This document shows positions 1-54,503 of a stretch of 64,000 bases of DNA, piece by piece (the first letter of the stretch is position 1; each line of letters begins with the position of its first letter). Under the pieces are notes generated by a model that worked only from the letters and a program-made list of their open reading frames with translations, was not told where the DNA came from and made no database searches. Made by a program: the position numbers and the translations under genes. Source of the stretch: Candidatus Methanoplasma cognatum (lineage in GTDB: Archaea; Thermoplasmatota; Thermoplasmata; Methanomassiliicoccales; Methanomethylophilaceae). The DNA is taken from positions 478,984-542,983 of the forward strand of contig WRLM01000001.1 in the NCBI GenBank assembly GCA_009777615.1, read 5' to 3'.

Positions 1-2113
1 ACCGACCGGAGCGATACTCTTCTACACCATACCCGGACTGAACGAGGTACAATACACGGCATCGTTCCCCATGAGCAGGGACGAGACCCTCAGCATCAGG
101 GCGTCTCCTGCCATCGGCACATACGGCTTCCTGAGATGGGAAGGTCCGGACGGGATAATCGGTACCAATGAGACAGTTACAGGCATGTCTTTGCCTTCCA
201 CAGGTGCAACAGCGGCATACAATGCTGTCTACGCCGCAACAGGAGACCTTCTCACCATAACGATGACGCAGACCGGAGGAGCGGGAGCGACGCTCTCGTA
301 CATCCTGAATGGCGTCGATTATCTGTACTCGGCACCCTTCACGGTCCGCAAGAGCGCTGACAGCGTATCTATCTCTGCTTCATCATACGGAAGCTTCGAC
401 GGCGTGAGATGGCAGGACGATATTGGCAACATACTGTCCCTGACCCCGGTGTCCGGGAACCTGAACCTGTCGGTATACGGTTCCGCTGTCACGATAACTG
501 CGGTCTTCGCCGCACCCGGCGACAGAGTGATCGTCACTCTGTCGTCCGAGCCTGCGGGAGCGGTCCTCTTCTACACAATATCCGGACTTAACGAGGTCCA
601 GTACACAACATCGTTCCCGATGAGCAGGAGCGAGACCCTGAGCGTCAGGGCGTCCGCGACCAACGGCACATACGACTTCCTCAGATGGGAGATCCCAGGC
701 GGGTCGATAGTCGGCACAAGCGAGGTTGTGACCAGTATGTCCCTACCCTCTACAGGCACGACTGCAACCTACAAGGCCGTCTATGTCGCACCCGGTGACA
801 GGATAATCGTCACCCTGGCGTCCGAGCCCGCAGTAGCGGTCCTCTTCTACACCATACCCGGGCTGAGTGAGACACAGTACACAGTACCGATCCCCATGAG
901 CAGGAGCGAGACCCTGAGCGTCAGGACGTCCGCAACCGCGGGCGTGTACGATTTCCAGCAATGGGAGGATTCCGGCGGGACGATAGTAGGAACGATTCCC
1001 GTCGTGACCGGTCTCTCTCTGCCGCTATCAGGAAATACGGAGACATTCACAGCATATTTCACCACATCAGCGGAGTACCAGATAACTGCCGACTCAGGTC
1101 CGCACGGATCGATATCTCCGTCCGGAGTGATCAGTGTTCTGCCGGGAGGGTCTCAGATGTTCAATTTCGTTCCCGATTCAGGATACACAGTGAACGCTGT
1201 GTACATTGACGGCATAAGGATATCCGGAACGCCGAACAGCTATACCTTCCAGAACGTCAACGGAGATCATACGATCCGCGTAGAGTTCTCTGTCAGGCAA
1301 TATCGTATCACCGCGACATCAGACGCAGGATCTACGATCTCTCCGAGCGGACAGGTAAATGTCCAGAGGGGGTCGGATCAGATGTTCTCGTTCTCAGCTG
1401 CCGACGGATATGTGATAACCGCAGTGATAGTGGACGGAGTATACCTTTCGCAGGAAAGGGTGGATCTCGGATACTACACTTTCAATAACGTGGCCGCGAA
1501 CCACTCCATCGAAGTGAAGAGCGAGACCGCAGACATAACTCTGATAATAGACCTGATGGAAGGAAAGGGATACGCTGAATACAGCGTGGACGGTTCAGAA
1601 TTTGTGAGGTATTACGATGTTATCACTTTGCCGGGAGGCTCTGACATAGTCGTAAGAGCAGTTGCGGACAAAGGATATGAGTTCAGCAGGTGGGTAACGC
1701 CGTATGTAGAGACCACGCCGCAGATATCCTTCCAGAATGTCTTCGGACCTCTGCATCTTGAGCTGTATTTCTCCGGGTCGGGATCATCTTCTGATCCCGC
1801 CATCTCGATCTCAGAGATGTTCATCATCATACTGCTGATCGTACTGCTGGCCGCAGGCTTGCTGATATTTGTTATCTTCTACAGAAGGTCGTACGATGTC
1901 ATCAAGGTGGGTCATTCGGAAGCCATAATCGGTAAGGACAAAGCGCGGAGAAAGAAGGCGTACCGTTTCTCAATAGAAGGGGCCCCGTCCGGAACTGTGT
2001 CCTACCGTGTCGGAGAGGATGGAATGTGGAAGACGATCACTCCCGACTCCGGAGGGGAATATGTCATACCGAAGGAGGATGTCATTGACAAGCTGACGAT
2101 AGAACATCGCTGA
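1..2113 (+). CDS. Repeat-rich membrane-anchored surface protein, 5' end cut by window
   Basis: The reading frame is open from base 2, so the start lies to the left. The visible 700 residues hold about 92-residue repeats (recurring FYTI-GLNE-QYT, PMSR-ETLS-RAS and FLRWE blocks, with copies starting near bases 2, 551 and 827). Two shorter modules with GSISPSG / STISPSG motifs follow, resembling the bacterial InlB-type/Flg_new repeat modules. Near bases 1818-1890 is one hydrophobic span followed by YRRS and a basic cytoplasmic tail of about 65 residues, so the repeats should face outward. Adhesin-like proteins of this build are common in gut methanogens. The binding target is unknown. Membrane topology is inferred from hydrophobicity alone. 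Confidence 0.8.
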   Translation, partial: PTGAILFYTIPGLNEVQYTASFPMSRDETLSIRASPAIGTYGFLRWEGPDGIIGTNETVTGMSLPSTGATAAYNAVYAATGDLLTITMTQTGGAGATLSYILNGVDYLYSAPFTVRKSADSVSISASSYGSFDGVRWQDDIGNILSLTPVSGNLNLSVYGSAVTITAVFAAPGDRVIVTLSSEPAGAVLFYTISGLNEVQYTTSFPMSRSETLSVRASATNGTYDFLRWEIPGGSIVGTSEVVTSMSLPSTGTTATYKAVYVAPGDRIIVTLASEPAVAVLFYTIPGLSETQYTVPIPMSRSETLSVRTSATAGVYDFQQWEDSGGTIVGTIPVVTGLSLPLSGNTETFTAYFTTSAEYQITADSGPHGSISPSGVISVLPGGSQMFNFVPDSGYTVNAVYIDGIRISGTPNSYTFQNVNGDHTIRVEFSVRQYRITATSDAGSTISPSGQVNVQRGSDQMFSFSAADGYVITAVIVDGVYLSQERVDLGYYTFNNVAANHSIEVKSETADITLIIDLMEGKGYAEYSVDGSEFVRYYDVITLPGGSDIVVRAVADKGYEFSRWVTPYVETTPQISFQNVFGPLHLELYFSGSGSSSDPAISISEMFIIILLIVLLAAGLLIFVIFYRRSYDVIKVGHSEAIIGKDKARRKKAYRFSIEGAPSGTVSYRVGEDGMWKTITPDSGGEYVIPKEDVIDKLTIEHR

Positions 2114-2165
2114 TTCCAAAACCCTTTTTAACCTCTTTCAAACAATTTTTTTTACATTTTTCTAG
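2114..2165 (+). terminator. T-rich archaeal terminator
   Basis: Directly after the surface-protein stop codon come several T tracts (runs of five to eight T). This is the usual archaeal intrinsic termination signal, and no strong hairpin is needed. Confidence 0.55.
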
Positions 2166-2235
2166 TCAAATCTGCGCCGAAGGGACACACATACACTCAT
2201 CAAAAGCACATCACTTTCAGCAAAAATGTTATTAC

Positions 2236-2256
2236 GGACAGGACCAATCACTGTCC
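2236..2256 (+). promoter_or_regulatory. Hairpin immediately before argF start
   Basis: GGACAG (2236-2241) and CTGTCC (2251-2256) are perfect inverted repeats ending one base before the argF ATG. An alternative AGGAC/GTCCT pairing also exists. It could be an operator or an RNA element that hides the start. There is no Shine-Dalgarno site here, so its role is open. Confidence 0.35.
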
Positions 2257-2257
2257 T

Positions 2258-3172
2258 ATGGCAAAGAGAAATCTGATATCGGTATTGGATATGAAGGACG
2301 AATGGCCCGATCTTGTGGAATTAGCCATAAAACTCAAGAAAGAACGCGGCAGTCACAATGCCCCCCTCAAGGGCAAGACACTGATAATGATATTTGAGAA
2401 ACCCAGCACCAGGACGAGGATCTCTTTTGATGTAGCCATAACCGAGCTCGGAGGCCATGCGCTGTACATCGACGCATCGAAGCTGCACATGGGCCACGGT
2501 GAGACGGTCGAGGATACCGCTAAGGTCATGAGCAGTATGGCGCACGGCATAATGTACCGCGCTTACGACTACAAAGTAATGGACACGTTCGGAGATGCCG
2601 CGACGATACCAGTCATAAGCGGACTCGACAATCTGGAGCATCCCTGCCAGGCTCTTGCGGACATGGCGACCATAAAAGAACGGAAAGGGTCCTTCCGCGG
2701 CAAGAAGCTTGTGTATCTGGGGGACGGGAACAACGTATGTAACTCCCTCCTCTATTCCTGCGCCATAATGGGATTGGACATGGTGGCGTGCTGTCCGGCA
2801 ACAAGGATGCCGAATGCGGAGATAATGCTGGGCGCAGCGCGCATCGCAGATGCGAACGGAAGCAAGATAACCGCTTCCCACGATCCGCGGGAGGCATGTA
2901 AGGATGCGGACATACTCTATACAGACACATGGGTCTCAATGGGAGACGACACTCCCGTCGATAAAGCCGTCAAGATATTCAGTATGTATCAGATAAACAA
3001 GGAGATGCTTTCGATAGCGAAGAAGGACTGCATCGTCATGCACTGTCTGCCCGCCCACAGAGGGTATGAGATAACGGCCGAGGTCATCGACGGCCCGCAG
3101 AGCGTCGTGATAGATCAGGCAGAGAACCGTCTGCACGCTCAGAAAGCGGTGCTTTACACACTCCTCAAATGA
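2258..3172 (+). CDS. argF: Ornithine carbamoyltransferase
   Basis: This 304-residue enzyme should make citrulline from ornithine and carbamoyl phosphate in arginine synthesis. The carbamoyl-phosphate site FEKPSTRTR is near residues 46-54. HPCQALAD is near 129-136, and the ornithine-side Cys motif MHCLPAHRG is near 264-272. Length and motif order are those of full OTCs rather than aspartate carbamoyltransferase. No other arg gene lies nearby. Its last 8 bp overlap the end of the convergent DHH gene, so the two transcripts are antisense at their 3' ends. Confidence 0.95.
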   Translation: MAKRNLISVLDMKDEWPDLVELAIKLKKERGSHNAPLKGKTLIMIFEKPSTRTRISFDVAITELGGHALYIDASKLHMGHGETVEDTAKVMSSMAHGIMYRAYDYKVMDTFGDAATIPVISGLDNLEHPCQALADMATIKERKGSFRGKKLVYLGDGNNVCNSLLYSCAIMGLDMVACCPATRMPNAEIMLGAARIADANGSKITASHDPREACKDADILYTDTWVSMGDDTPVDKAVKIFSMYQINKEMLSIAKKDCIVMHCLPAHRGYEITAEVIDGPQSVVIDQAENRLHAQKAVLYTLLK

Positions 3173-4580
3173 TCTGGGAGGAGACGAGGTCTTCCACGAT
3201 ATCCAGGAACTCCTCTTCCTTACCTTTGGGTATCGTTGCTCCGGCCGCGACCTTATGGCCGCCGCCGTAACCGCCCACCATCTCAGACGCGGTCTTCATT
3301 ATGAAAGAAAGGTCCAGCCCGCGGTCCGTAAGGGCCCGGTTGGCTCTTGCCGACACCTTTATCCCGTCCTCAGCCTCCGCGAACGCGAAGATGGGAAAGT
3401 CTCTTTTAGCTTCCCCGGAATTGAGCAGCATGCCTGCGACTATGCCGACGACCGTCTCCCTGACCTCTGGTCCGGCATCGAAATATTGTAGGAACCTGCG
3501 CTCTTTCAGGAGCCGGTTCTCTTTTATGTAGCTGATAGCGGAAGAGATGTGTTTCCTGTGGTCCGCGCGGTTCCTTTCCGCATCCTCCAGCGCCGTAAGG
3601 TCGCCGCGGCAGATCCTCAGGCCGGTCACGGCGTCGTCGTATCTTCCGCATGAGTTCAGCACCGTAGCGAATTCTTTCACATCCCTCAGACCGGTGCATG
3701 ATCCGTATCTTGTGATCGTGTATATCTCGCCGATCAGCCTTTTCTTCAGATCGCCGTCTTCGATGTAAGACAGCAGACGGTCCGAAGCCCTCTTCCTTTC
3801 GTCATCGGTAAGGTCCCTCCAAGCCCTTTGCCTGTCCCCGCTTTTAAGGGGTATTTTAAGGTCGGAGAAGAACGCCGCGCTTCCGGGGCCGTTGTCGCTG
3901 ATCCCCGGTATCGGAGGGTCGCTGCTGTATTGAAGGAATTGTACGAGGGGCCTGTAATCCCGCCCGAAGTAACGCACATCCTTTTCTACGGCAACATCTC
4001 CGGCGGAGACCGCTTCGTCCAAGATGGCCCTGTTGTATCCGACGAGTTTGGATTCCCGGTTGTCCTGAAGATCGCCGACCGCACCTATTATGGCAAGGTA
4101 TGCCTGGTCCTTGTTTTTAGGGTCTATGGTCTTCGAAAGCAGATAGGTCATACCCGCGCCGCTGACCTCGTACGAACCGGATACGCCGTACATATGGGGG
4201 TTCAGATGGTGGATGCCGCCGAAGTCATCCAAGGATGTCTGGTCGATCCTCCATTTCGGGTCAGGGACATGATGGTCCGTGACCACTATGCCCGACCTTT
4301 TGAATCCCGAAAGATAAGCGCTGCCGAGGTCGCAGATCCACACGATATCTTGTTCAGACCCGTTTATCATGGAGATGGTTTCCTCGGTGATCTTCTTCTC
4401 GAACAAAAGCGTGTAGCTCTTGCCGAGCCTTTCCAGGGTAGCGGCGGCGATACCACCGGCAGCTATGCCGTCAGCGTCGATATGGGTTATGACGAGGACG
4501 CTCCCGGCGGACCGGACGGCGTCGGCCGCCTTCTCCAGATCCCTTATCAGTTTCTCACAGTAAACGCTGTCTGCATCCAT
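3165..4580 (-). CDS. DHH-family phosphoesterase, archaeal RecJ-like nuclease
   Basis: A 471-residue protein with the motif set of the RecJ/DHH family: THIDADG near residue 33 (motif I), VTDHH near 101 (the DHH motif) and a C-terminal GGYGGGH (DHHA1 domain). Archaeal members act as single-strand-specific exonucleases, some of them bound to the GINS/CMG replication complex. The present protein could instead cut short oligonucleotides. The ATG at 4580 was chosen because AAGGAA lies just upstream. Longer in-frame extensions lack a ribosome site and homology. The gene is convergent with argF. The 198 bases between its start and the next gene show no gene. Confidence 0.85.
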   Translation of the reverse strand: MDADSVYCEKLIRDLEKAADAVRSAGSVLVITHIDADGIAAGGIAAATLERLGKSYTLLFEKKITEETISMINGSEQDIVWICDLGSAYLSGFKRSGIVVTDHHVPDPKWRIDQTSLDDFGGIHHLNPHMYGVSGSYEVSGAGMTYLLSKTIDPKNKDQAYLAIIGAVGDLQDNRESKLVGYNRAILDEAVSAGDVAVEKDVRYFGRDYRPLVQFLQYSSDPPIPGISDNGPGSAAFFSDLKIPLKSGDRQRAWRDLTDDERKRASDRLLSYIEDGDLKKRLIGEIYTITRYGSCTGLRDVKEFATVLNSCGRYDDAVTGLRICRGDLTALEDAERNRADHRKHISSAISYIKENRLLKERRFLQYFDAGPEVRETVVGIVAGMLLNSGEAKRDFPIFAFAEAEDGIKVSARANRALTDRGLDLSFIMKTASEMVGGYGGGHKVAAGATIPKGKEEEFLDIVEDLVSSQII

Positions 4581-12391: not shown

Positions 12392-14542
12392 TCAGGGATT
12401 CTCTTCCTCCTCATCCTTTCTCCTCTTGGCAAAAAGAATTATGAAGAATATCCCGATGAGGGCGATCACTGCAAGAATTGCTACCAACCAGATGCACGCG
12501 TCGGGGATCGAGATGCCTGTGGAGCCGGGCTTGGAATCAACAGGGCTACTCACCGTGATGGAGAAGTCCTTCACGAAGGGAGTGCCCGGCGCCTTGCCGT
12601 CCGCTATCGTGGCGGTGACCACCACAACGCCGGCCTTATTGGTCGTCAGCGTGTTGCCATTGAGGGAGGCACCGGTGCCCCCGTCGCTCTTAAGCGACCA
12701 TTTGATCGTCTGGTTTGTTGCGTTGGAAGGGGTCACTATCCCCGTCAGGGTGATCGACGTCCCCACCGTTAAATAAGAAGGCACCCCTATTATGTTAGTC
12801 ACCGGAATAAAGGGATCCGATGGTGGTGTAACAGGAGCCGTCACTGTGATGGTGAAGTCCTTCACGAAAGGCACGCCCGGAGCCGTGCCGTCTGTTATCT
12901 CGGCGGTGACGACTATAGTTCCTGAGTGGGAGGCTGTGAGATTTGCGCCGGCGAGCGTCGCTCCTGTCGAACCAGCGCTCTTCACGGACCACGAGATGAC
13001 CGTGTTGGTGGCATCGGAGGGCACCACGGTGCCTGTGAGAGCAATGGTGGCCCCCGCCGCCATCGAGGACGGCAATCCTGATATGTCTGTGACGGGGACG
13101 AAGGGTTCAGTTCCATATTTCACAACTATGGCATCAATGGTGCCTTTCCCGGCCACGCCTGACCAATCGCCATTGCCGAAGGAGGCGTTGGGAGAATACC
13201 CCGCGGCGGCGAAACCGCCGCCGGACACCGCCGCCACACCATAGAAGCCATCGCTGCCGGAGCCGCCGAAGTTGTCCTTCCACTCTACTGCGCCATCCTT
13301 GTCATACTTCACTATGATGGCGTCACTGCCGCCTTTTCCGGTCACACCTGACCAGTCGCCCGTGCCGTCGAAGGAGGTGCTGGCGGAACTCCCGGCGGCG
13401 GCTATGCCGCCGTCGGTCGCGACTGCCACATCTTGGAAGTAATCGGCGCCCGTGCTGCCGAAGTTATTCTGCCATTCGACTACGCCGTCCTCGTCGTACT
13501 TCACTATGATGGCGTCATTGCCGCCTTTTCCGCTCCCGGCCGGCCAGTCGCCCGTGCCGTCGAAGGAGGTGCCGGCGGAATACCCGGCGGCGACGAAGCT
13601 GCCGCCGGGTGCAGCCGCTAATCCATAAAAGTAATCGCCGCCAGTGCCGCCGAAGTTCTTCTGCCATTCGACTATGCCGTCCTCGTCGTACTTCACTATG
13701 ATGGCGTCATCGCCCCCCTTACCGCTCCCGGCCGGCCAGTCGCCAGTGCCGCTGAAGGAGCCGGCGGCGGAACTCCCGGCAGCAACGAAGCCGCCGTCGG
13801 GTGCAGCCACCACTCCATAAAAGAAATCACTACCGGCGCCGCCGAAGTTCTTCTGCCATTCGATTATGCCGTTCTCGTCGTACTTTACTATGATGGCGTC
13901 ATCGCCCCCCTTACCGCTCCCGGCCGGCCAGTCGCCCGTGCCGCTGAAGGAGGCGCTGACAGAATACCCTACAACAACGAAGCCGCCGTCTAGTGCAGCC
14001 GTCACTTCGCGAAAGACATCGTTACCCGAGCCGCCGAAGTTCTTCTGCCATTCCACTGTGCCGTTCTCGTCATACTTTACTATGATTGCGTCATTGCCGC
14101 CTTTTCCGCTCCCGGCCGGCCAGTCGCCAGTGCCGCTGAAGGAGCCAGTGGCGGAATACCCGACAGCAACGAAGCCGCCGTCTAGTGCAGCCGTCGCCCC
14201 GTAAAAGTAATCGGCACCCGAGCCGCCGAAGTTATCCTGCCACTCTATTGCACCGTCCTTGTCGTACTTCACTATGGTGGCGTCATTGCCGCCTTTTCCG
14301 GTTGTGCTTGACCAGTCGCCGTTGCCGAGGGAGCTGTTGTCGGAAGTCCCGACGACGATGAAGCCGCCGTCTAGTGCAGCCGCCGCCGCGTTAATGTAAT
14401 CGCCGCCAGAGCCTCCGAAGTTGTTTACAAACGAAATGTCCTCCTCAGCCGCCGAAACCGCGGCAACGGGCACGGCGGCAAGGACCATTACCGCCGCCAG
14501 CAGGACATACATGCCCTTCTTATTTTTTGAATTACTGTGCAT
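12392..14542 (-). CDS. Surface protein with seven propeller-type repeats and two Ig-like domains
   Basis: A 716-residue protein. Residues 1-32 are a signal peptide ending around AVSA. Residues 36 to about 475 hold seven repeats of 62-64 residues, each with NFGG-G-D, DGGF, GDW, GKGG-DAI and VKYD-DG motifs, the number expected for one seven-bladed beta-propeller. Two bacterial Ig-like domains of about 88 residues follow, each ending in PFVKDF-ITV. The C-terminus has a membrane span and a basic KRRK tail that would anchor it in the membrane. A role in adhesion or ligand binding is inferred. Repeats are also similar at DNA level, so blade number could change by recombination. Confidence 0.82.
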   Translation of the reverse strand: MHSNSKNKKGMYVLLAAVMVLAAVPVAAVSAAEEDISFVNNFGGSGGDYINAAAAALDGGFIVVGTSDNSSLGNGDWSSTTGKGGNDATIVKYDKDGAIEWQDNFGGSGADYFYGATAALDGGFVAVGYSATGSFSGTGDWPAGSGKGGNDAIIVKYDENGTVEWQKNFGGSGNDVFREVTAALDGGFVVVGYSVSASFSGTGDWPAGSGKGGDDAIIVKYDENGIIEWQKNFGGAGSDFFYGVVAAPDGGFVAAGSSAAGSFSGTGDWPAGSGKGGDDAIIVKYDEDGIVEWQKNFGGTGGDYFYGLAAAPGGSFVAAGYSAGTSFDGTGDWPAGSGKGGNDAIIVKYDEDGVVEWQNNFGSTGADYFQDVAVATDGGIAAAGSSASTSFDGTGDWSGVTGKGGSDAIIVKYDKDGAVEWKDNFGGSGSDGFYGVAAVSGGGFAAAGYSPNASFGNGDWSGVAGKGTIDAIVVKYGTEPFVPVTDISGLPSSMAAGATIALTGTVVPSDATNTVISWSVKSAGSTGATLAGANLTASHSGTIVVTAEITDGTAPGVPFVKDFTITVTAPVTPPSDPFIPVTNIIGVPSYLTVGTSITLTGIVTPSNATNQTIKWSLKSDGGTGASLNGNTLTTNKAGVVVVTATIADGKAPGTPFVKDFSITVSSPVDSKPGSTGISIPDACIWLVAILAVIALIGIFFIILFAKRRKDEEEENP

Positions 14543-14631
14543 ATTTACCCTCCATGATCGAGCCGTTCGCGGACTGGGTCCAGAAAATGTCTGCCGGACG
14601 CGACGATTGGCTTTATGACAGTTTGATACCC

Positions 14632-14654
14632 CTTTAAAATATATATAATATATG
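14632..14654 (-). promoter_or_regulatory. TATA-rich promoter of propeller protein gene
   Basis: A long AT stretch (CTTTAAAATATATATAATATATG on the plus strand) lies about 95 bp upstream of the ATG at 14542. The rest of 14543-14882 shows no convincing gene, only a small CCCGG-TTTTT-CCGGG hairpin near 14785-14805 that could end the ycaO transcript. Confidence 0.45.
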
Positions 14655-14882
14655 CTTTCCTACTTATTTTTGGATATATGGGGGTCGCTTTATTACTTCT
14701 GAAAAGAATTCCTTCCGCGAGCTTGCAAAGATGTCTTTTTCCTCATGACTAATAAACAAGTCCCCGGTCGCGAAATCAGCTTTATAGGCCCCCGGTTTTT
14801 CCGGGAACTGTGAAAGATCCACGTGAAGACGCGGCGGTTATGCCGCGATGGTTTACGCAGATCGTAGGTCTCGGGACACCGC

Positions 14883-44158: not shown

Positions 44159-44313
44159 ATGGCGGAAATGATCGGTACCTATACATATTTTTTTTTGGAA
44201 CCTATATTTTGTTGGATAATTTTTTTTGAGTTTTTTGGTAATCCATTATGCCATTCGCCGCCGCCGGTCCGTTTGCGCGCTTCGAACGCAGAAAAAAGGC
44301 AGCATTCATTACA

Positions 44314-44396
44314 CATTTATTCGTAATTTACGAATATAATTTTTTGAAATACACATTTATTTGTATGCCGAGAGTTTTAATATACATTGATTCGTA
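44314..44396 (+). promoter_or_regulatory. Repeat and palindrome array at phosphatase-like gene promoter
   Basis: Three related 12-mers, CATTTATTCGTA (44314), CATTTATTTGTA (44354) and CATTGATTCGTA (44385), are spaced 40 and 31 bp apart, close to whole helical turns. The first overlaps a perfect palindrome TTCGTAA-T-TTACGAA (44320-44334). A TATA-like TTTTAATATAC (44375-44385) lies between the second and third. The layout fits cooperative regulator binding around the promoter. Confidence 0.5.
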
Positions 44397-44463
44397 TTTT
44401 TCCTCACGGTATGGGTTCGGGTTCCAGCGGAAACACGGGCACAGGCCGAAAAGGAGCGAAAAA

Positions 44464-47400
44464 ATGCAGACAATAACGAAACAGAGCGCAATCGTGGTGC
44501 TTCTGGTCATGGCAGTGTTGCTTCCTTGCTTGTACATCGGGGTAGAGGCAGGGGGAGGACAGCATTCCAACAATGCGGGATCACACAATGCGCGGGACGC
44601 GGACAGTCTACAACCATCTTACAACGGACCTTTCTATTTTGATGATTATACTAATAATGGCGTAAGCACCATCGCCATCGGCGCGGGACTGCCGAAGAAG
44701 ATGCAGCCTGCTCCGGCAGAACTTCTTATCAGCTTTGTATACATTGGTATCGACAATGCTTCCTCCGGCACTCATAGTTTTGTAGAGATATACAACCCGA
44801 ATGACTTTGCTGTCGGGCTGACAGGAACGTATGCACTCCACTACAAGAGCATGGCCGGTTCCAGCGAAATGAAATATTTCACACCAGACTGGATCAAATT
44901 GGATCTCGCAGGCGAGATACCTGCGGAACATTCCTTCCTGGTGAACCTTGGCGAGACCGGTTCCCTCCCGGGCGGGAATGCCCAAGTGGGCCGTCTTGAC
45001 CTTAGAGACAAGACCTTTGACCAGAGTTTTGTCTGGCCAAACGGCATTAAAGGCTACAACAAGGGCGTGAAGTTCGTCCTCACATCCAACCAGGACCAGC
45101 TTCCGAACACTTTGGCAAATCCCTTCGACGGCGACGGCGCAGGGCAGATCAATGGCTACGTGGACATGTTCGGCGTATCCGGCAACGATAACACATCTCC
45201 TTCGGTCGACGGTTATGAGACCGAGCGCTTACTTGCGAACGACAATGAGGCGCAATCCAAACAGAAAGGGTTTGCCCGCATAAACAAAGACAGCGGGATC
45301 AAATATCAGGATACTGACAACAACCTGCGAGACTTCCAGCAGGTTGACTTCAGAAGTTCGGACCTGACGGACCCCACACGCATTCCGCGCAGCATCGAAG
45401 ACGGGGCATGGGGAGAGTCCGGAACGATCGCGGGAACATTCGCCGCAGAGACCCTGACCCTGACGCCCGGTTCCACCGAGCGCGACATGAACTTCACATG
45501 GTACAGCGACAGGGAGGACGCATCCGCGTCGGCGGTCCAGATAACGAAGACCTCAAGCCTGGTGAACGGACAGTTCCCGGCTGACGGTGTTATAACGGTC
45601 ACCGGCACCTTCGGCGACGCTTCCAGCGGAAAGAGCTGGCATAAGGCCGGGGTCACCGCACTCGAGCTTGACACCGAATATGCGTACCGTGTTTCCAACG
45701 ACGGGACATACTTCAGCGAGATCTACACATTCAGGACCGCCTCCGCAGGGAACTTCCAGTTCATCGCGGTAGGCGACCCGCAGCTGGCCAACAACCAGGA
45801 TTCCGACAGCATCAACCCCGTGACCACCACGGCGGCGGGCTGGCAGAACACCCTGAGCCTTATCAGCCAATACTTCCCCGACGCACGCTTCATGGCGGGC
45901 ACCGGAGACCAGGTCGATACGGCCACCAATGAATCGCAGTACACCAACTACTTCGCACCCGAGCAGCTGCGCAGCCTGCCCGTGGCGCCGTCGGTGGGCA
46001 ACCACGAGGGCACCGCCGGCAACTTCGGATGGCATTACAACCTGCCTAACGAGACCTCCGGCAGCTACTTCGGCAACTATTGGTACACATACAACAACGC
46101 TTTGTTCGTTGTCCTCAACACTGCGCCTTACCCGGCGAACCAGAATGACCTGAACCAGTACATCCCGGTGATGGACGCGACCCTGAAGGCGGCGACGGAT
46201 GCCAACCCCGACGCCGCATGGATCTTCGTGCAGCACCACAAGTCCACGGCGTCGCCGGCCTCGCACCAGACCGACGCCGACGTTCTGGTCTGGACCCCGG
46301 CATTCAACGCCCTGATGGACAAGTACGGCGTGGACTTCGTCTTCGCCGGACACGACCATGTTTACTCAAGGAGCTGGTCCATACTCGGCGGCGAGAAGGT
46401 GGAGGGAATCGATTATTCCCTTGACAATGTGACCAACCCTGCCGGAACGATATACTTCACCCTCAGCACCGCCAGCGGCCTGAAATACTACGACTTCCGC
46501 ACGACCGCCCCCGGAAACCCTGCATGGGTCAGCGGGAACGACGGTCTGTACTTCGAGGACAAGAACGGAGTCAGGGACCTCAGCGGCATCACCGGGAAAC
46601 CGTGGTACACCAACATCGGCATTCAGGTGAAGGTGCCCCAGTTCACGGTAGTGGACGTCACCGCGGACAGCGTGACGGTTACAACCTACCGCACGGACAC
46701 CATGGCGGTAATCGACAAGTACACTGTGTTCAAGACGACCGCCCCGGCGGTTCTGGAGAGCATCAGTGTGAGCGAGTACCCGGCGAAGACCGAGTATATC
46801 ATCGGCGAGTCCCTTGACCTGACCGGCATGGTCGTCAACGCCGTATACAGCGACGGAAGCACCAAGACCGTTACAGGTTACGGTACGGACCCGGTGAAAG
46901 GCAAGACCTTGGACACGATCGGGACACAGACCGTCACCGTAGCGTACATCGAGGACGGAATGCTTTACACAACGAACTTCACGATCACCGTCGGCCTCCC
47001 GGTGGTTCTGGAGTGCATCGTCGTGAGCGAGTATCCGGTAAAGACGGAATATTTCGTCGGCGAGTCCCTTGATCTTACCGGTCTTGTTGTGACCGCCGCG
47101 TACAGCGACGGAAGCACAGAGATCGTAACGGACTACATCGCATACCCGGCGGAGGGCACGGTCCTGGATGATATCGGCACGCAGGTCGTTCTGATAGCAT
47201 ACGCAGAGGACAGCGTCACCATGCTGGCATGGTTCGACGTCACGGTGGTCCCCATCCCGGTGGTTCTGGAATGCATCGTCGTGAGCAAGTACCCGGTGAA
47301 GGCCGGGTATATCGTCGGCGAGTCCCTTGACCTTACCGGCCTGGTAGTTACCGCCGTATACAGCGACGGAAGCACCAAGGCCATAAAGGGCTACGCCGCA

Positions 47401-47856
47401 TACCCGTCGGCGGGCACAGTCTTGGACTCGGTCGGAACACAGACCGTAACGATCGCTTACATAGAGGACGGAACCCTCTATATGACGAACTTCACGGTCA
47501 CGGTGGATCTCCCGCCGGTCCTGGAGTGCATCATCGTGAGCGAGTACCCGGTGAAGACCGGGTATATCGTCGGCGATCTCCTTGACCTGACCGGCCTTGT
47601 TGTAACTGCCGTATACAGCGACGGAAGCACCAAGGTCGTCACCGGTTACGGTACCGTTCCTTCAAAGGGCGCGGTCCTGGATTCGATCGGAACACAGACC
47701 GTAACGGTCGCATACATTGAGGACGGGATGTTCTGCACAACGGACTTCACGGTCACAGTGGACGGCAAGTCCGTGCCGAGCGGTTCTGTCCTGAGCATGA
47801 ACGAAGAGGAGCTCGACCGCGAGAACGGCGACGGAGGGAACACCGGCGACGTCTGA
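44464..47856 (+). CDS. Secreted purple-acid-phosphatase-like protein with lamin-tail and Ig-like domains
   Basis: A 1130-residue protein. Residues 1-30 are a signal peptide. A lamin-tail-like domain begins near 89 (FVEIYNPND). An FnIII-type phosphatase N-domain lies near 328-430. The metallophosphoesterase core follows, with GDPQ near 436, GTGDQVD near 480, GNHEG near 512, VQHHKS near 589 and AGHDHVYSRS near 628, so all metal-ligand blocks are kept. Four Ig-like (group 3) repeats of about 85 residues fill 763 to 1100, each with SLDLTG and YSDGST. It has no membrane anchor and an acidic tail. AGGAG supports ATG 44464. The substrate is unknown; an outer-surface phosphatase is likely. Confidence 0.82.
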   Translation: MQTITKQSAIVVLLVMAVLLPCLYIGVEAGGGQHSNNAGSHNARDADSLQPSYNGPFYFDDYTNNGVSTIAIGAGLPKKMQPAPAELLISFVYIGIDNASSGTHSFVEIYNPNDFAVGLTGTYALHYKSMAGSSEMKYFTPDWIKLDLAGEIPAEHSFLVNLGETGSLPGGNAQVGRLDLRDKTFDQSFVWPNGIKGYNKGVKFVLTSNQDQLPNTLANPFDGDGAGQINGYVDMFGVSGNDNTSPSVDGYETERLLANDNEAQSKQKGFARINKDSGIKYQDTDNNLRDFQQVDFRSSDLTDPTRIPRSIEDGAWGESGTIAGTFAAETLTLTPGSTERDMNFTWYSDREDASASAVQITKTSSLVNGQFPADGVITVTGTFGDASSGKSWHKAGVTALELDTEYAYRVSNDGTYFSEIYTFRTASAGNFQFIAVGDPQLANNQDSDSINPVTTTAAGWQNTLSLISQYFPDARFMAGTGDQVDTATNESQYTNYFAPEQLRSLPVAPSVGNHEGTAGNFGWHYNLPNETSGSYFGNYWYTYNNALFVVLNTAPYPANQNDLNQYIPVMDATLKAATDANPDAAWIFVQHHKSTASPASHQTDADVLVWTPAFNALMDKYGVDFVFAGHDHVYSRSWSILGGEKVEGIDYSLDNVTNPAGTIYFTLSTASGLKYYDFRTTAPGNPAWVSGNDGLYFEDKNGVRDLSGITGKPWYTNIGIQVKVPQFTVVDVTADSVTVTTYRTDTMAVIDKYTVFKTTAPAVLESISVSEYPAKTEYIIGESLDLTGMVVNAVYSDGSTKTVTGYGTDPVKGKTLDTIGTQTVTVAYIEDGMLYTTNFTITVGLPVVLECIVVSEYPVKTEYFVGESLDLTGLVVTAAYSDGSTEIVTDYIAYPAEGTVLDDIGTQVVLIAYAEDSVTMLAWFDVTVVPIPVVLECIVVSKYPVKAGYIVGESLDLTGLVVTAVYSDGSTKAIKGYAAYPSAGTVLDSVGTQTVTIAYIEDGTLYMTNFTVTVDLPPVLECIIVSEYPVKTGYIVGDLLDLTGLVVTAVYSDGSTKVVTGYGTVPSKGAVLDSIGTQTVTVAYIEDGMFCTTDFTVTVDGKSVPSGSVLSMNEEELDRENGDGGNTGDV

Positions 47857-48186: not shown

Positions 48187-48260
48187 CTATTATATATTCT
48201 GAACGGAGCCGTTTTTGTAAATCAGGTCGCTTCAAATATCCATAACACGGTGACTTGGAC

Positions 48261-49364
48261 ATGGAAATTTTCAGATCTCGGGAAAAACATCGGAAGGACC
48301 GGGATGAAACAAGGATCGATAAGCCGAAGGATATAAGGAAACGTCTTGCTAAGGCGGAGAGGGGTGATGTCAGGGCCCAATATGAGGCCGGCATTATGTA
48401 TCAGGAGGGCCGAGGCGTGCCTCAGGATCATGAAAAAGCGGCAAAGTGGTTAAGGCTCGCGGCGGAGGGGGTAAGAAACAGCGACGATTTCATTCCGTTC
48501 TGTATTGACATCCTGTTGTACGACATGGGGCTGAACGATCCCCAGGACTATGAAGAAGCGGCCAAATGGTTCAGACGGGTGGCGGAATTAGGCCTCTCAG
48601 ATAATGCTGTGAGCTGGGCTCAGGCGGAAGAGGAGACAGCATTTTGGATGAAGCTCGGGGCGGAGCACGGGAACGTTCACGCTCAGTTCAGTCTCGGATT
48701 GATGTATCAGGAAGGCAGCGGCGTACCTCAGGACTATGAAGAATCTTCCAAATGGGTAAGACTCGCGGCGGAGCACGGGGACCCGCTCGCTCAATGCAAC
48801 CTCGGGTACCTGTATGAGAACGGCCTCGGGGTGCCGAAGAATTATAGGGAAGCCGCAAAATGGTACACGGCCGCGGCGGAGCAGGGAGACTATTCCGCCC
48901 AGGACAGTCTCAGCCGCATATACGAAAACGGCCAGGACATACCTGTGGATCAGAAAGAAGCCGTGAAGTGGTATGGACTATCCGCGGAACGAGGGACCCC
49001 GGATTCCCAATTCAAACTCGGCCTGAGATTTTATATGGGGCGGGGTGTGCCCCGGGATTACAAAGAGGCAGCAAAATGGTACACTCTTGCGGCGGAAGGA
49101 GGGTCCTCGCATGCACAATTCGGCATCGGTAATATGTACGAAGAAGGGCTGGGCGTGAATAAAGATTACAAAGAAGCGGCGAAGTGGTACGGTCTTGCGG
49201 CCGAGCAGGGGGATCCAGCAGCACAATATCACCTCGGCCGTCTGTACGAAGAAGGGCTGGGTGTGGCTCCGGATGTCCGGAAGGCCGCCGGGCTGTATGG
49301 GCTCGCAGCCGGTCGGGGACATGCCGCCGCGAAGGAATGTCTTGCGCGTCTGCAAGCCCTGTGA
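48261..49364 (+). CDS. Sel1-repeat protein (367 residues)
   Basis: A basic N-terminus of about 30 residues (FRSREKHRKDRDETRIDK) is followed by about eight or nine Sel1 repeats of 36 residues with the AQY-LG-MYEEGLGV-DYKEAAKWY-LAAEQGD pattern. No signal peptide. ATG 48261 fits a GGTGACTTGG site better than the TTG two codons earlier. It begins 75 bases after tRNA-Leu. Likely a protein-binding solenoid with unknown partner. The charged N-terminus sets it apart from the Sel1 protein at 43409-44158. Confidence 0.8.
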   Translation: MEIFRSREKHRKDRDETRIDKPKDIRKRLAKAERGDVRAQYEAGIMYQEGRGVPQDHEKAAKWLRLAAEGVRNSDDFIPFCIDILLYDMGLNDPQDYEEAAKWFRRVAELGLSDNAVSWAQAEEETAFWMKLGAEHGNVHAQFSLGLMYQEGSGVPQDYEESSKWVRLAAEHGDPLAQCNLGYLYENGLGVPKNYREAAKWYTAAAEQGDYSAQDSLSRIYENGQDIPVDQKEAVKWYGLSAERGTPDSQFKLGLRFYMGRGVPRDYKEAAKWYTLAAEGGSSHAQFGIGNMYEEGLGVNKDYKEAAKWYGLAAEQGDPAAQYHLGRLYEEGLGVAPDVRKAAGLYGLAAGRGHAAAKECLARLQAL

Positions 49365-50710: not shown

Positions 50711-50894
50711 TGTCAGACTGCCGACCGGGCACGACACCCCGCCCCCTCTGGATGAGGGCGGGCCAGGCTAAAACGCCAAAGGAAAGCGAGTGGCCTCACT
50801 GTCGGATGATCTCCCAGTGTCTATGATCGTCTATGGCAAAATTGGGCCCATACATGGCCTGTTGTTGAGATAGAAGTGGTGAATATTTAAAAGA

Positions 50895-50940
50895 GTGACA
50901 TTTACAGTGACATTTACAGTGACATTTACAGTGACATTTA
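50895..50940. repeat. Nearly four tandem copies of a 12-bp repeat
   Basis: GTGACATTTACA is repeated head to tail three times plus ten bases of a fourth, in the gene-free gap 50711-51026. The same gap has four scattered TATGGCC/ATGGCCTG motifs (near 50853, 50940, 50972 and 50999). No hairpin or ORF is evident. It lies at the 3' side of the Roco gene. Confidence 0.85.
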
Positions 50941-51026
50941 TGGCCTGTATCTTCATATCACATAAACTTCTATGGCCCTTTTTTCTGTGTTTATGAGGTA
51001 TGGCCTGAACATTTGAGACCTATGAG

Positions 51027-54000
51027 TTACTGGCCGATGAGCGATTTTAACCATGTGAATATGGCGGGATTGTCCTGAACAAACTTTGAAAATTTAGAAA
51101 CAAGTCCCGGCATTTCCTTTCCGGCTTTCATGAAGAAATCTCTAACCGTACCCCACCTTTTCTTTTTATCTTGAATAGGATTTTTATATTCTTCTAACGC
51201 TGATTCCAGCTGCTTGGCTTCGTCAAGTGTCATTTTACCATATTCTTTGGAATTTAAGAACGCTTCTATAGCCTTCAAAAATTCATCCATCTGTGCGGAG
51301 GTTGCTTCGGATGGCAGGTTATCTACCCAGTTTACATAGTTCGTCGTATGTGTTTCCTGAAATGTGCTTACTCCCCTTTGTTTCCCCGTATTAACGTTTA
51401 CGTTACCGTCCCTGCCATAGACTACGTTACTGTCCTTATAGACATTCACAGTCGCACCTCCCATTCTGTCGTTTTCTATTTCATCATCGGTGTGTATTAG
51501 ACGCAACAATACTCTTGGGTCTGCATATTGTTTCGTCTCTTCTAAATATATTCTGTTTGCACCATCGTGATATTGGTCCAAAACTACGGAATATTTTATT
51601 TTTCCACTTTTTCCGTCAATGCGGTAGTGGATATATTCATCAAATTTAAGGTTCAGCTGCTTCAATATGTCATTAAGCTTATCCCTGATATGGCTCAAAT
51701 ATTCTTTTTCTCCATCCTGTTCCGTTGAGCCTACAAAGGCGTGGATCTTCTTTTCTTCAAGATCCATACGCATAAGCACTCTCCTTTTTCCATCTCTGCT
51801 TATGAATCCTGCGCCGTTCAACCAAACGCAGTCCTTGTCTAAATCATCAAACATTTTTATCATCAGGCGATGTATGGCATTATATGGCATATACTCGGCC
51901 TCCCATGAAAGATGCAACGATTGTTCTTCGTCAACAAAGCCTTTAGCAGCATCTGGGGTGGTTTTGTTCAATTTAAGTGGGACGAACACAACGTCGCCAC
52001 ACTTGAGGGAAATTTCAAATTGCGCCATTACATCAAGTACGAAATCTATCTCCTCACCTTTGTATGTATATTTAGTTATGTCATTGGGATGAGCTTTTTC
52101 TATAACCTTTTTGACAGTGCTATGTTCAATAAAGGCATTGTTCTTCTCCGTCTTGGTGATTAGTCTGTATATGCCGCCGGTGATCCAATTGGGATTCAAC
52201 ACCGTTATATTTTGAGCAGCGTAACCGATATCCTGCCCTTCATAGTAGTACGATATGCCCAGATCTTTGAACCAGCGCAGTAGCCAACTCTGAATATCAA
52301 CGTTTGTCTCGTTCGCTCTCTTACATATTTCAACGTAATCCTCCTGTTTGATATATGGACTGCTCATTGCTTCCAATGCTTCTTTGATTGGAAACCATTT
52401 ACTATTGAAGATGCTCGTGAACATCTCACCTTTTTCAACAGCCTTGTCTATACAAGTTTTCAGGTCCTCAATGCCGATGTTTTTTTTAGCGGATGTTCTT
52501 ACCACTGGCAGTTGTAAATTAGGATACAGTTTTTTCAAATCGGCTTCATTTACGGCCGCATCTTCTGAGTGGTCAATTTTATTGATGACGAGAATAGCCG
52601 GACAATCCGGCGCGAATGCTTCCACGGTCTTAAGCCAGTGTGTGGCGGTTCTATTGAAGAACTGGTTTTCGCGGGCATCTAGAACGATGACATATACTGT
52701 TCTCGACGTTAAAAAGCATTTATGCATGGTGTGCATAACCTCCTGTCCGCCAAAATCCCATATCCGAAGCGTGACATCTTTTCCCAAAATGTTTCTTTTA
52801 TGCTTTTTTATTAAAATGCCGTCCGTGGGAGGTCTGTCTGGTATATATTCATCATGTTTTACAATTCGTTCGATAAGAGATGTCTTTCCGACCTCTCCGT
52901 CCCCTAAAAAGATGATCTTGCATTCATTGATGTTTGTTATGTTTTTATAGAATTCCTGTATGAAATCCAACGGCATCTCGAAAAGACTTATGGGCATTTT
53001 CAGCAGCTTTGTATCAAATAGGGCAATTCCATGAGAGGAAAACTGATCATACTCGAAACTCAACCCCAGGAAAGCTATTGACTTTGGAATAATAGGCACA
53101 GTAAGGCCGGATAAATTCAGACGATGTAAGTTGCTTAAACCTCCAAGCTCCTCTGGTATCTCTTTCAGCTCGTTGTCACTTATATCAAGCGAAGTGAGGT
53201 TTTTCAGTCCTCCTATGAACGCCGGCAGTTCTTTCAGAAAGTTGTCACTTATATCAAGCGAAGTGAGGTTTTTCAGTCCTCCTATGAACGCCGGCAGTTC
53301 TTCCAGAAAGTTGTTACTTATATCAAGCGAAGTGAGGTTTTTCAGTTCCCCTATGAACGCCGGCAGTTCTTTCAGAAAGTTGTAACTTATATCAAGCGAA
53401 GTGAGGTTTTTCAGTTCCCCTATGGATGCCGGCAGTTCTTTCAGAAAGTTGTTACTTATATTAAGCGAAGTGAGGTTTTTCAGTTCCCCTATGGATGCCG
53501 GCAGTTCTATCCGATGGTTGCTCCACATACTAAGCGAAGTGAGGTTTTTCAGTTCCCCTATGGATGCCGGCAGTTCTATCAGCCTGTTGCGGCCTATACC
53601 AAGCGAAGTGAGGTTTTTCAGTTCCCCTATGGATGCCGGCAGTTCTTTCAGATCGTTGTCACTTATATTAAGCGAAGTGAGGTTTTTCAGTCCTCCTATG
53701 AACGCCGGCAGTTCTGTCAGATGGTTGCCCCATATACTAAGCGAAGTGAGGTTTTTCAGTTCCCCTATGAACGCCGGCAGTTCTGTCAGATCGTTCCTCC
53801 ACATACTAAGCGAAGTGAGGTTTTTCAGTTCCCCTATGAACGCCGGCAGTTCTTCCAGCCCGTTGTAACTTATATCAAGCGAAGTGAGGTTTTTCAGTTC
53901 CCCTATGAACGCCGGCAGTTCTTTCAGCCCGTTGTAACTTATATTAAGCGAAGTGAGGTTTTTCAGTCCTCCTATGAACGCCGGCAATTCTTTCAGCCCG

Positions 54001-54503
54001 TTGCCGCTTATATCAAGCGACGTGAGGTTTTTTAGTCCTCCTATGAACGCCGGCAGTTCTTTCAGATCGTTGCCGCCTATATCAAGCGAAGTGAGGTTTT
54101 TTAGTCCTCCTATGAACGCCGGCAGTTCTTTCAGAAAGTTGTCACTTATATCAAGCGAAGTGAGGTTTTTCAGTCCTCCTATGAACGCCGGCAGTTCTTT
54201 CAGATCGTTGTCACTTATATTAAGCGAAGTGAGGTTTTTCAGTCCTCCTATGAACGCCGGCAGTTCTTCCAGCCCGTTGTAACTTATATCAAGCGAAGTG
54301 AGGTTTTTCAGTTCCCCTATGAACGCCGGCAGTTCTTTCAACAAAAAGGGGCACTCTCTTATAACCAGACATATGATCTCATTCCCTTTAATAACCGCTT
54401 TAAATGGAAAGGGAGATTTTTCCATCTCTTCCACAGAATCATAAAACTTGAATTTTATATTTGATTTGTTTTTTAATGTTTCAAAAAAATCACTGGGCCC
54501 CAT
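51027..54503 (-). CDS. Roco protein: LRR-Roc-COR GTPase
   Basis: A 1158-residue protein. A short N-terminal region (1-57) leads to 17 nearly identical 23-residue leucine-rich repeats (58-448; LPAFIG-LKNLTSLDIS-N pattern) and one divergent one. A Roc GTPase domain follows: P-loop GDGEVGKT 534-541, DFGGQ 583-587, NKID 641-644. A COR domain comes next (about 690-1000), then a C-terminal region of about 150 residues I cannot place. Roco proteins dimerise through COR and act as nucleotide-regulated switches. Bacterial and some Methanosarcina members exist. GGAGGAAGAA precedes the ATG. The gene is AT-richer than its neighbours, which suggests transfer. Confidence 0.92.
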   Translation of the reverse strand: MGPSDFFETLKNKSNIKFKFYDSVEEMEKSPFPFKAVIKGNEIICLVIRECPFLLKELPAFIGELKNLTSLDISYNGLEELPAFIGGLKNLTSLNISDNDLKELPAFIGGLKNLTSLDISDNFLKELPAFIGGLKNLTSLDIGGNDLKELPAFIGGLKNLTSLDISGNGLKELPAFIGGLKNLTSLNISYNGLKELPAFIGELKNLTSLDISYNGLEELPAFIGELKNLTSLSMWRNDLTELPAFIGELKNLTSLSIWGNHLTELPAFIGGLKNLTSLNISDNDLKELPASIGELKNLTSLGIGRNRLIELPASIGELKNLTSLSMWSNHRIELPASIGELKNLTSLNISNNFLKELPASIGELKNLTSLDISYNFLKELPAFIGELKNLTSLDISNNFLEELPAFIGGLKNLTSLDISDNFLKELPAFIGGLKNLTSLDISDNELKEIPEELGGLSNLHRLNLSGLTVPIIPKSIAFLGLSFEYDQFSSHGIALFDTKLLKMPISLFEMPLDFIQEFYKNITNINECKIIFLGDGEVGKTSLIERIVKHDEYIPDRPPTDGILIKKHKRNILGKDVTLRIWDFGGQEVMHTMHKCFLTSRTVYVIVLDARENQFFNRTATHWLKTVEAFAPDCPAILVINKIDHSEDAAVNEADLKKLYPNLQLPVVRTSAKKNIGIEDLKTCIDKAVEKGEMFTSIFNSKWFPIKEALEAMSSPYIKQEDYVEICKRANETNVDIQSWLLRWFKDLGISYYYEGQDIGYAAQNITVLNPNWITGGIYRLITKTEKNNAFIEHSTVKKVIEKAHPNDITKYTYKGEEIDFVLDVMAQFEISLKCGDVVFVPLKLNKTTPDAAKGFVDEEQSLHLSWEAEYMPYNAIHRLMIKMFDDLDKDCVWLNGAGFISRDGKRRVLMRMDLEEKKIHAFVGSTEQDGEKEYLSHIRDKLNDILKQLNLKFDEYIHYRIDGKSGKIKYSVVLDQYHDGANRIYLEETKQYADPRVLLRLIHTDDEIENDRMGGATVNVYKDSNVVYGRDGNVNVNTGKQRGVSTFQETHTTNYVNWVDNLPSEATSAQMDEFLKAIEAFLNSKEYGKMTLDEAKQLESALEEYKNPIQDKKKRWGTVRDFFMKAGKEMPGLVSKFSKFVQDNPAIFTWLKSLIGQ
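53160..54332 (-). repeat. 17 x 69-bp direct repeat array (LRR-coding)
   Basis: Exactly 17 units of 69 bp encode the 23-residue repeats of the Roco protein. DNA identity between units is very high, even at silent sites (each holds AACCTCACTTCGCTT-type segments). Such homogeneity implies recent expansion or gene conversion and could let unit number vary between strains. Confidence 0.92.

Follow-up and report, generated by a model that had tools for sequence, protein, structure and literature searches.

What would a Roco protein, from the family related to the Parkinson's kinase LRRK2, do in a methanogenic archaeon, and why are its leucine-rich repeats (LRRs) so alike? We analysed a 64-kb window (the whole stretch of DNA under study, 64,000 nucleotides) from Candidatus Methanoplasma cognatum. 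The earlier note on this DNA was right to call the host a methanogen because mcrA lies within the window. A congener, Candidatus Methanoplasma termitum, comes from the termite gut and has a published complete genome of 1.49 Mb (PMC5011839).

The gene is a single unbroken frame (Table 1). Pfam recovers LRR, Roc (9.5e-27, residues 529–644), COR-A (4.4e-23) and COR-B (6e-7) in that order, all above the curated cut-offs, which bears out the earlier reading of an LRR solenoid joined to a Roc-COR switch. Roc directly precedes COR in the 1158-residue protein, the arrangement that marks the Roco family. The P-loop, DxxG-type, NKxD and SAK motif classes are all present in the Roc domain, and the nucleotide-binding motifs are intact (GDGEVGKTS at 534, DFGGQE at 583, NKID at 641 and TSAKK at 670). 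The best solved match is Chlorobium tepidum CtRoco (6hlu, 8r4b), collinear over residues 127–1068, and the dimerisation role given to COR-B is taken from that protein (PMC6337361). The full-length predicted model contains an LRR solenoid with pLDDT about 53–77 in the first units and 80–95 in the remaining ones; Roc-COR reaches about 25–55 in this model, built from 6 sequences, so that only the LRRs are confident and the inter-domain geometry was not read. A search of the whole source genome with the protein returned no other Roco.

Table 1. Features of the Roco gene and its flanks, in window coordinates.
Feature	Residues	Position	Strand	Basis
Roco gene, LRR-Roc-COR plus C-terminal helical domain, 1158 aa		51027..54503	-	ORF, Pfam
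N-terminal cap	1-56	54336..54503	-	helix and beta hairpin in predicted structure
17 tandem LRR units, 23 aa / 69 bp each	57-447	53163..54335	-	TRF, protein register
Diverged 18th LRR, EIPEELGGLSNLHRLNLSGLTVP	448-470	53094..53162	-	protein register
Roc GTPase domain, motifs intact	529-683	52455..52919	-	Pfam, motif reading
COR-A	702-836	51996..52400	-	Pfam
COR-B, dimerisation half of COR	861-958	51630..51923	-	Pfam
Asn/Gly-rich linker, predicted disordered	1015-1052	51348..51461	-	sequence, predicted structure
C-terminal helical domain, about six helices, candidate effector/adaptor	1053-1158	51030..51347	-	prediction
Downstream flank of inserted segment, 47% GC		50711..51026		GC; congeners without Roco
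Upstream flank of inserted segment		54504..54851		GC; congeners without Roco

The genomic setting points to a foreign origin. As the earlier note had observed, the gene stands isolated between what read as an FNT-type gene and an isocitrate/isopropylmalate-dehydrogenase-like gene, and it is AT-richer than its surroundings (GC 42% and GC3 47%, versus 53–55% and about 70% in the neighbours). In two congeners the same two flanking genes adjoin without a Roco, lying roughly 70 bp apart in one and roughly 140 bp in the other as judged from match coordinates, and no orthologue was found in any sampled congener. COR-A was detected in just 1 of 147 genomes of the order, and so in none of the 146 other than the source genome, and in 2 of 293 genomes sampled in the phylum. 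The closest relatives, at about 50% identity, come from the Clostridiales MAG TD116_bin47 and number at least five Roco genes or gene fragments, several of them in tandem. The tree joins these with the Methanoplasma protein with 100/100 support and places the phylum's other Roco apart. At 42%, the GC content of the gene is intermediate between the Clostridiales MAG Roco genes (35%) and the host (53–55%). Because its closest relatives are these tandem Clostridiales genes, sequence comparison indicates that the Roco was almost certainly acquired horizontally from bacteria, at a site with no insert in congeners. Vertical inheritance was rejected on the absence across the order together with the tree, and bacterial acquisition, which the earlier note had missed, is the best account. 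Flanking target-site repeats of at least 9 bp were not found around the segment. Just downstream of the gene, at 50894–50940, the 12-bp sequence AGTGACATTTAC occurs about four times without mismatch, with TATGGCC motifs scattered nearby; these are possibly a scar or a regulatory element.

The array itself is highly regular. TRF reports a period of 69 bp and 17.1 copies with 90% matches and no indels over 53161–54340, and the protein register gives exactly 17 consecutive 23-residue units. Pairwise DNA identity between units averages 88% (range 75–100%); units 1 and 7, 2 and 10, and 3 and 16 are identical pairs of non-adjacent copies, and the longest exact repeat within the array is 97 bp. The 17 units of 69 bp described previously are therefore there, whereas "almost identical" was slightly strong, and the units fall short of uniform near-identity, their differences clustering in five codons. 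Recent homogenisation is supported: in a set of 17 arrays of at least five units, drawn from Rocos and other LRR proteins, none of the others equals this one in mean identity or falls as low in silent divergence (pS 0.129 here over an 11-unit run and 0.153 over all 17 units, versus 0.32–0.75 in the 16 other arrays). The contrast that had been drawn with ordinary LRR divergence holds in that this array is the extreme of the 17 surveyed, but high-identity arrays also occur in other Rocos. A Roco on plasmid pNsp_j of Nostoc sp. ATCC 53789 carries a 69-bp array of 22.6 copies with 88% matches by TRF, in which some units are 100% identical, and the array of a Leptospira LRR protein averages 82% identity. 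The Methanoplasma Roco thus belongs to a known kind, and its array is the extreme of a tendency rather than unique. Two further repeat proteins are encoded elsewhere in the window. One (12395–14659, minus strand) has a membrane-anchor-like C-terminus and about six 64-residue (192-bp) repeats that are partly homogenised (82% TRF matches), and the other (44248–47856, plus strand) is a large, secreted protein of metallophosphatase-like type that contains four Ig-like repeats of 255 bp each, its gene adjoining a Sel1-repeat gene (48255–49364).

The differences between units are concentrated in a few places. Each unit is hypervariable at codons 16, 18, 19, 21 and 23 and nearly invariant at the others, such that DNA identity is 95.2% across the 18 scaffold codons and 61.3% across the five variable ones. 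These five codons hold 73.5% of the amino-acid differences between units; among 33,649 sets of five codons, only 2 attain this level. Here pN is 0.416 and pS 0.215 (pN/pS 1.9), compared with 0.056 and 0.144 (pN/pS 0.39) in the scaffold, ratios that, within a recombining array, are descriptive and do not amount to a formal test of selection. The five codons correspond to the x positions in and just after the LxLxxNxL motif, which in established LRR structures form the concave side and rim of the solenoid; in the predicted structure, strands fall on codons 14–18 of each repeat, so that codons 16 and 18 lie in the sheet. The array thus combines high DNA identity between repeats with hypervariable surface codons, as do the immune-type repeats of fungal HNWD and brown-algal ROCO proteins. 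The 17 units carry 14 distinct surface segments. All four allelic combinations are present in 23 of 55 informative site pairs (four-gamete incompatibility), which indicates exchange between units, and adjacent units are more similar than in shuffled order (p 0.0015). Since the protein has no second match in the genome, this exchange most simply occurs within the locus. On the basis of the uniform scaffold and of differences focused on the concave face, we can conclude that the array recombines and is homogenised while its putative binding face stays diverse. The concave-face focus had not been noticed before.

The other end of the protein is harder to place. Beyond the disordered Asn/Gly-rich linker, the last 105 or so residues are predicted to fold into about six helices with pLDDT near 80, and Pfam returns nothing significant in the last 140 or so. 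The earlier note could not assign this region and proposed a search of structure libraries; when run, that search matched no PDB fold or viral structure, so the region stays outside any Pfam family or solved fold. Searches for a known effector or EAD at the C-terminus gave no match in Pfam, PADLOC, PDB folds or viral structures, and Spectrin-like and SHOCT-like matches fell far below cut-off. The domain is common to the Methanoplasma Roco and two Clostridiales paralogues. Some TD116_bin47 paralogues lack it, ending just before it, while others retain it, and among 398 genomes of that Clostridiales phylum the only strong matches are in TD116_bin47's own paralogues, the same search giving three further short matches (E 0.002–0.008). 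The LRRs of these tandem paralogues have diverged to an ordinary degree.

A function has been predicted for proteins of this kind. Prokaryotic AP-GTPase (Roco) proteins are predicted counter-invader systems whose LRRs evolve fast and whose C-terminal domains fall into at least 24 kinds (PMC8195603), and the Methanoplasma protein likewise has N-terminal fast-evolving LRRs fused to Roc-COR. Because that work places prokaryotic Rocos among conflict systems, the earlier statement that their job in archaea is unknown overstates the gap, although the role stands as a prediction. Related Rocos sit in conflict-type contexts. Those of Nostoc and Calothrix end in CHAT (6.5e-35) and EAD1 (2.3e-26); plasmid Rocos of Haliscomenobacter hydrossis have type I restriction-modification genes alongside and BREX brxC in the vicinity; and on Photobacterium toruni plasmid NZ_CP101696.1 a Roco sits between TniB/HTH and TniQ/Csy2, inside an apparent type I-F CRISPR-associated Tn7-like transposon. 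No defence genes were recognised beside the Methanoplasma Roco, for which PADLOC has no model, and phage records contained no Roco. The repeat pattern also has parallels in immune receptors: in the brown-algal ROCO candidate immune receptors four concave LRR sites are positively selected (PMC11378527), and in the Podospora HNWD proteins concerted evolution of WD40 repeats together with four selected codons generates recognition specificities (PMC1805685). Since the published prediction, the C-termini and neighbourhoods of relatives and these repeat-pattern parallels agree, we infer that the Roco is, on balance, probably a conflict (immune) receptor of NLR-like type, gained horizontally, encoded by a single gene and equipped with a recombining LRR sensor.

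Such a receptor would use the LRR solenoid as its sensor, holding on its concave face a ligand, perhaps a protein from a virus or another invader. Binding would move the LRRs relative to the Roc-COR switch, and GTP would drive a dimer to an open monomer, as in the GTP-driven monomerisation of Chlorobium CtRoco (PMC11052575). Opening might then release or cluster the C-terminal helical domain, a putative effector or recruiter of one. Within the array, the 69-bp units would exchange sequence by unequal crossing-over or conversion, which would keep the scaffold uniform and reshuffle the surface variants and could so create new specificities with the fold unbroken. A stronger version, which we offer tentatively and hold less likely than the receptor role itself, is an evolvable, near-adaptive archaeal receptor in which unit recombination creates new binding faces within populations, as a prokaryotic counterpart of HNWD and the brown-algal ROCOs; it would link GTPases of the LRRK2 family to immunity in archaea.

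The pattern in the array could have arisen in other ways. Were it the passive product of slippage and conversion, with the surface simply its least constrained part, relaxed constraint alone would predict more variation at solvent-exposed x positions, and several other LRR arrays do vary much there. Relaxed constraint should however bring pN towards pS, not to a pN/pS of about 1.9. Moreover, the surface codons differ by multiple bases alongside nearly fixed silent sites, which barely vary across the array, and x positions elsewhere in the unit, for example 10, 13 and 14 (K, T, S), do not change at protein level; we therefore regard neutral concerted evolution as improbable. An assembly artefact or contamination, with the array length or the placement of the gene in error, is far less probable still. 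Short reads do not assemble high-identity NLR repeats reliably (PMC12222747) and the GC content of the gene does differ from its surroundings, but the gene is embedded in a contig of 648 kb, the host genes flanking it on either side show synteny with congeners, the frame is intact, 14 different surface segments resist simple collapse and the longest exact repeat is within the span of ordinary reads. Hypermutation of the surface codons by a diversity-generating retroelement (DGR) is barely credible and was rejected: codons 16 and 19 include AAC/AAT-like variants, but codons 18 and 21 do not resemble adenine-specific mutation and no DGR reverse transcriptase was found in the genome, where the sole RVT_1 match scores under the curated cut-off and comes from an RT_UG5-nitrilase protein on another contig. 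That reverse transcriptase (C2:163350-163784; PADLOC E=6e-138) is a DRT-type candidate defence gene.

The most serious competitor concerns function and not the array. In a sensor or signalling Roco outside immunity, the LRRs would bind a surface or peptide of the cell itself, a host or a neighbouring cell, in adhesion, kin recognition or stress, and Roc-COR would signal to a partner. In Dictyostelium and vertebrates, Roco roles extend to chemotaxis and cytoskeletal control, and prokaryotic functions are essentially unknown (PMC6337361), and the protein carries no identified toxic effector. Its presence in 1 of 147 genomes, the mobile-element and defence context of relatives and the diversified binding face nevertheless fit an arms race better, and we consider a role of this kind rather unlikely.

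We therefore return to the conflict receptor. A diversified surface on a homogenised scaffold indicates that the LRRs track a changing ligand, and the same combination makes the immune hypothesis directly testable. If this is correct, an archaeon would, by way of transfer between microbes, share a strategy with fungi and brown algae.

Among known systems, the AP-GTPase conflict systems share the LRRs, Roc, COR and variable C-terminus, the sporadic distribution and a donor-like lineage with multiple copies (PMC8195603), whereas the Methanoplasma Roco has a C-terminus without an assigned family, a single copy, the most homogenised LRRs surveyed and a methanogen host of the Methanomassiliicoccales type. 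CtRoco (6hlu, 8r4b) and Methanosarcina barkeri Roco2 (4wnr) are the best-matching solved Rocos and are collinear through LRR-Roc-COR; unlike them, the Methanoplasma protein carries 17 near-copy units, and its C-terminal helical domain lies beyond the stretch that aligns with the solved chains. The pNsp_j protein of Nostoc (LRR-Roc-COR-CHAT, 1717-3272) also bears a homogenised 69-bp LRR array on a Roco, but it ends in a CHAT protease-like domain, its pS is 0.44–0.46 and it has no replacement excess at concave codons. The brown-algal ROCOs combine LRR-Roc-COR with shuffling 23-residue units (PMC11378527); there the units are separate exons subject to alternative splicing, whereas those of Methanoplasma are contiguous codons, whose diversity must come by DNA recombination. 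In the HNWD/HET-E NLRs (PMC1805685, PMC12222747), concerted repeats with hypervariable surface codons are likewise placed under the control of an NTPase switch, but these proteins use a WD40 propeller, a NACHT ATPase and a multi-gene family that exchanges repeats, in contrast to the LRRs, the Roc GTPase and a genome in which no second LRR locus was found.
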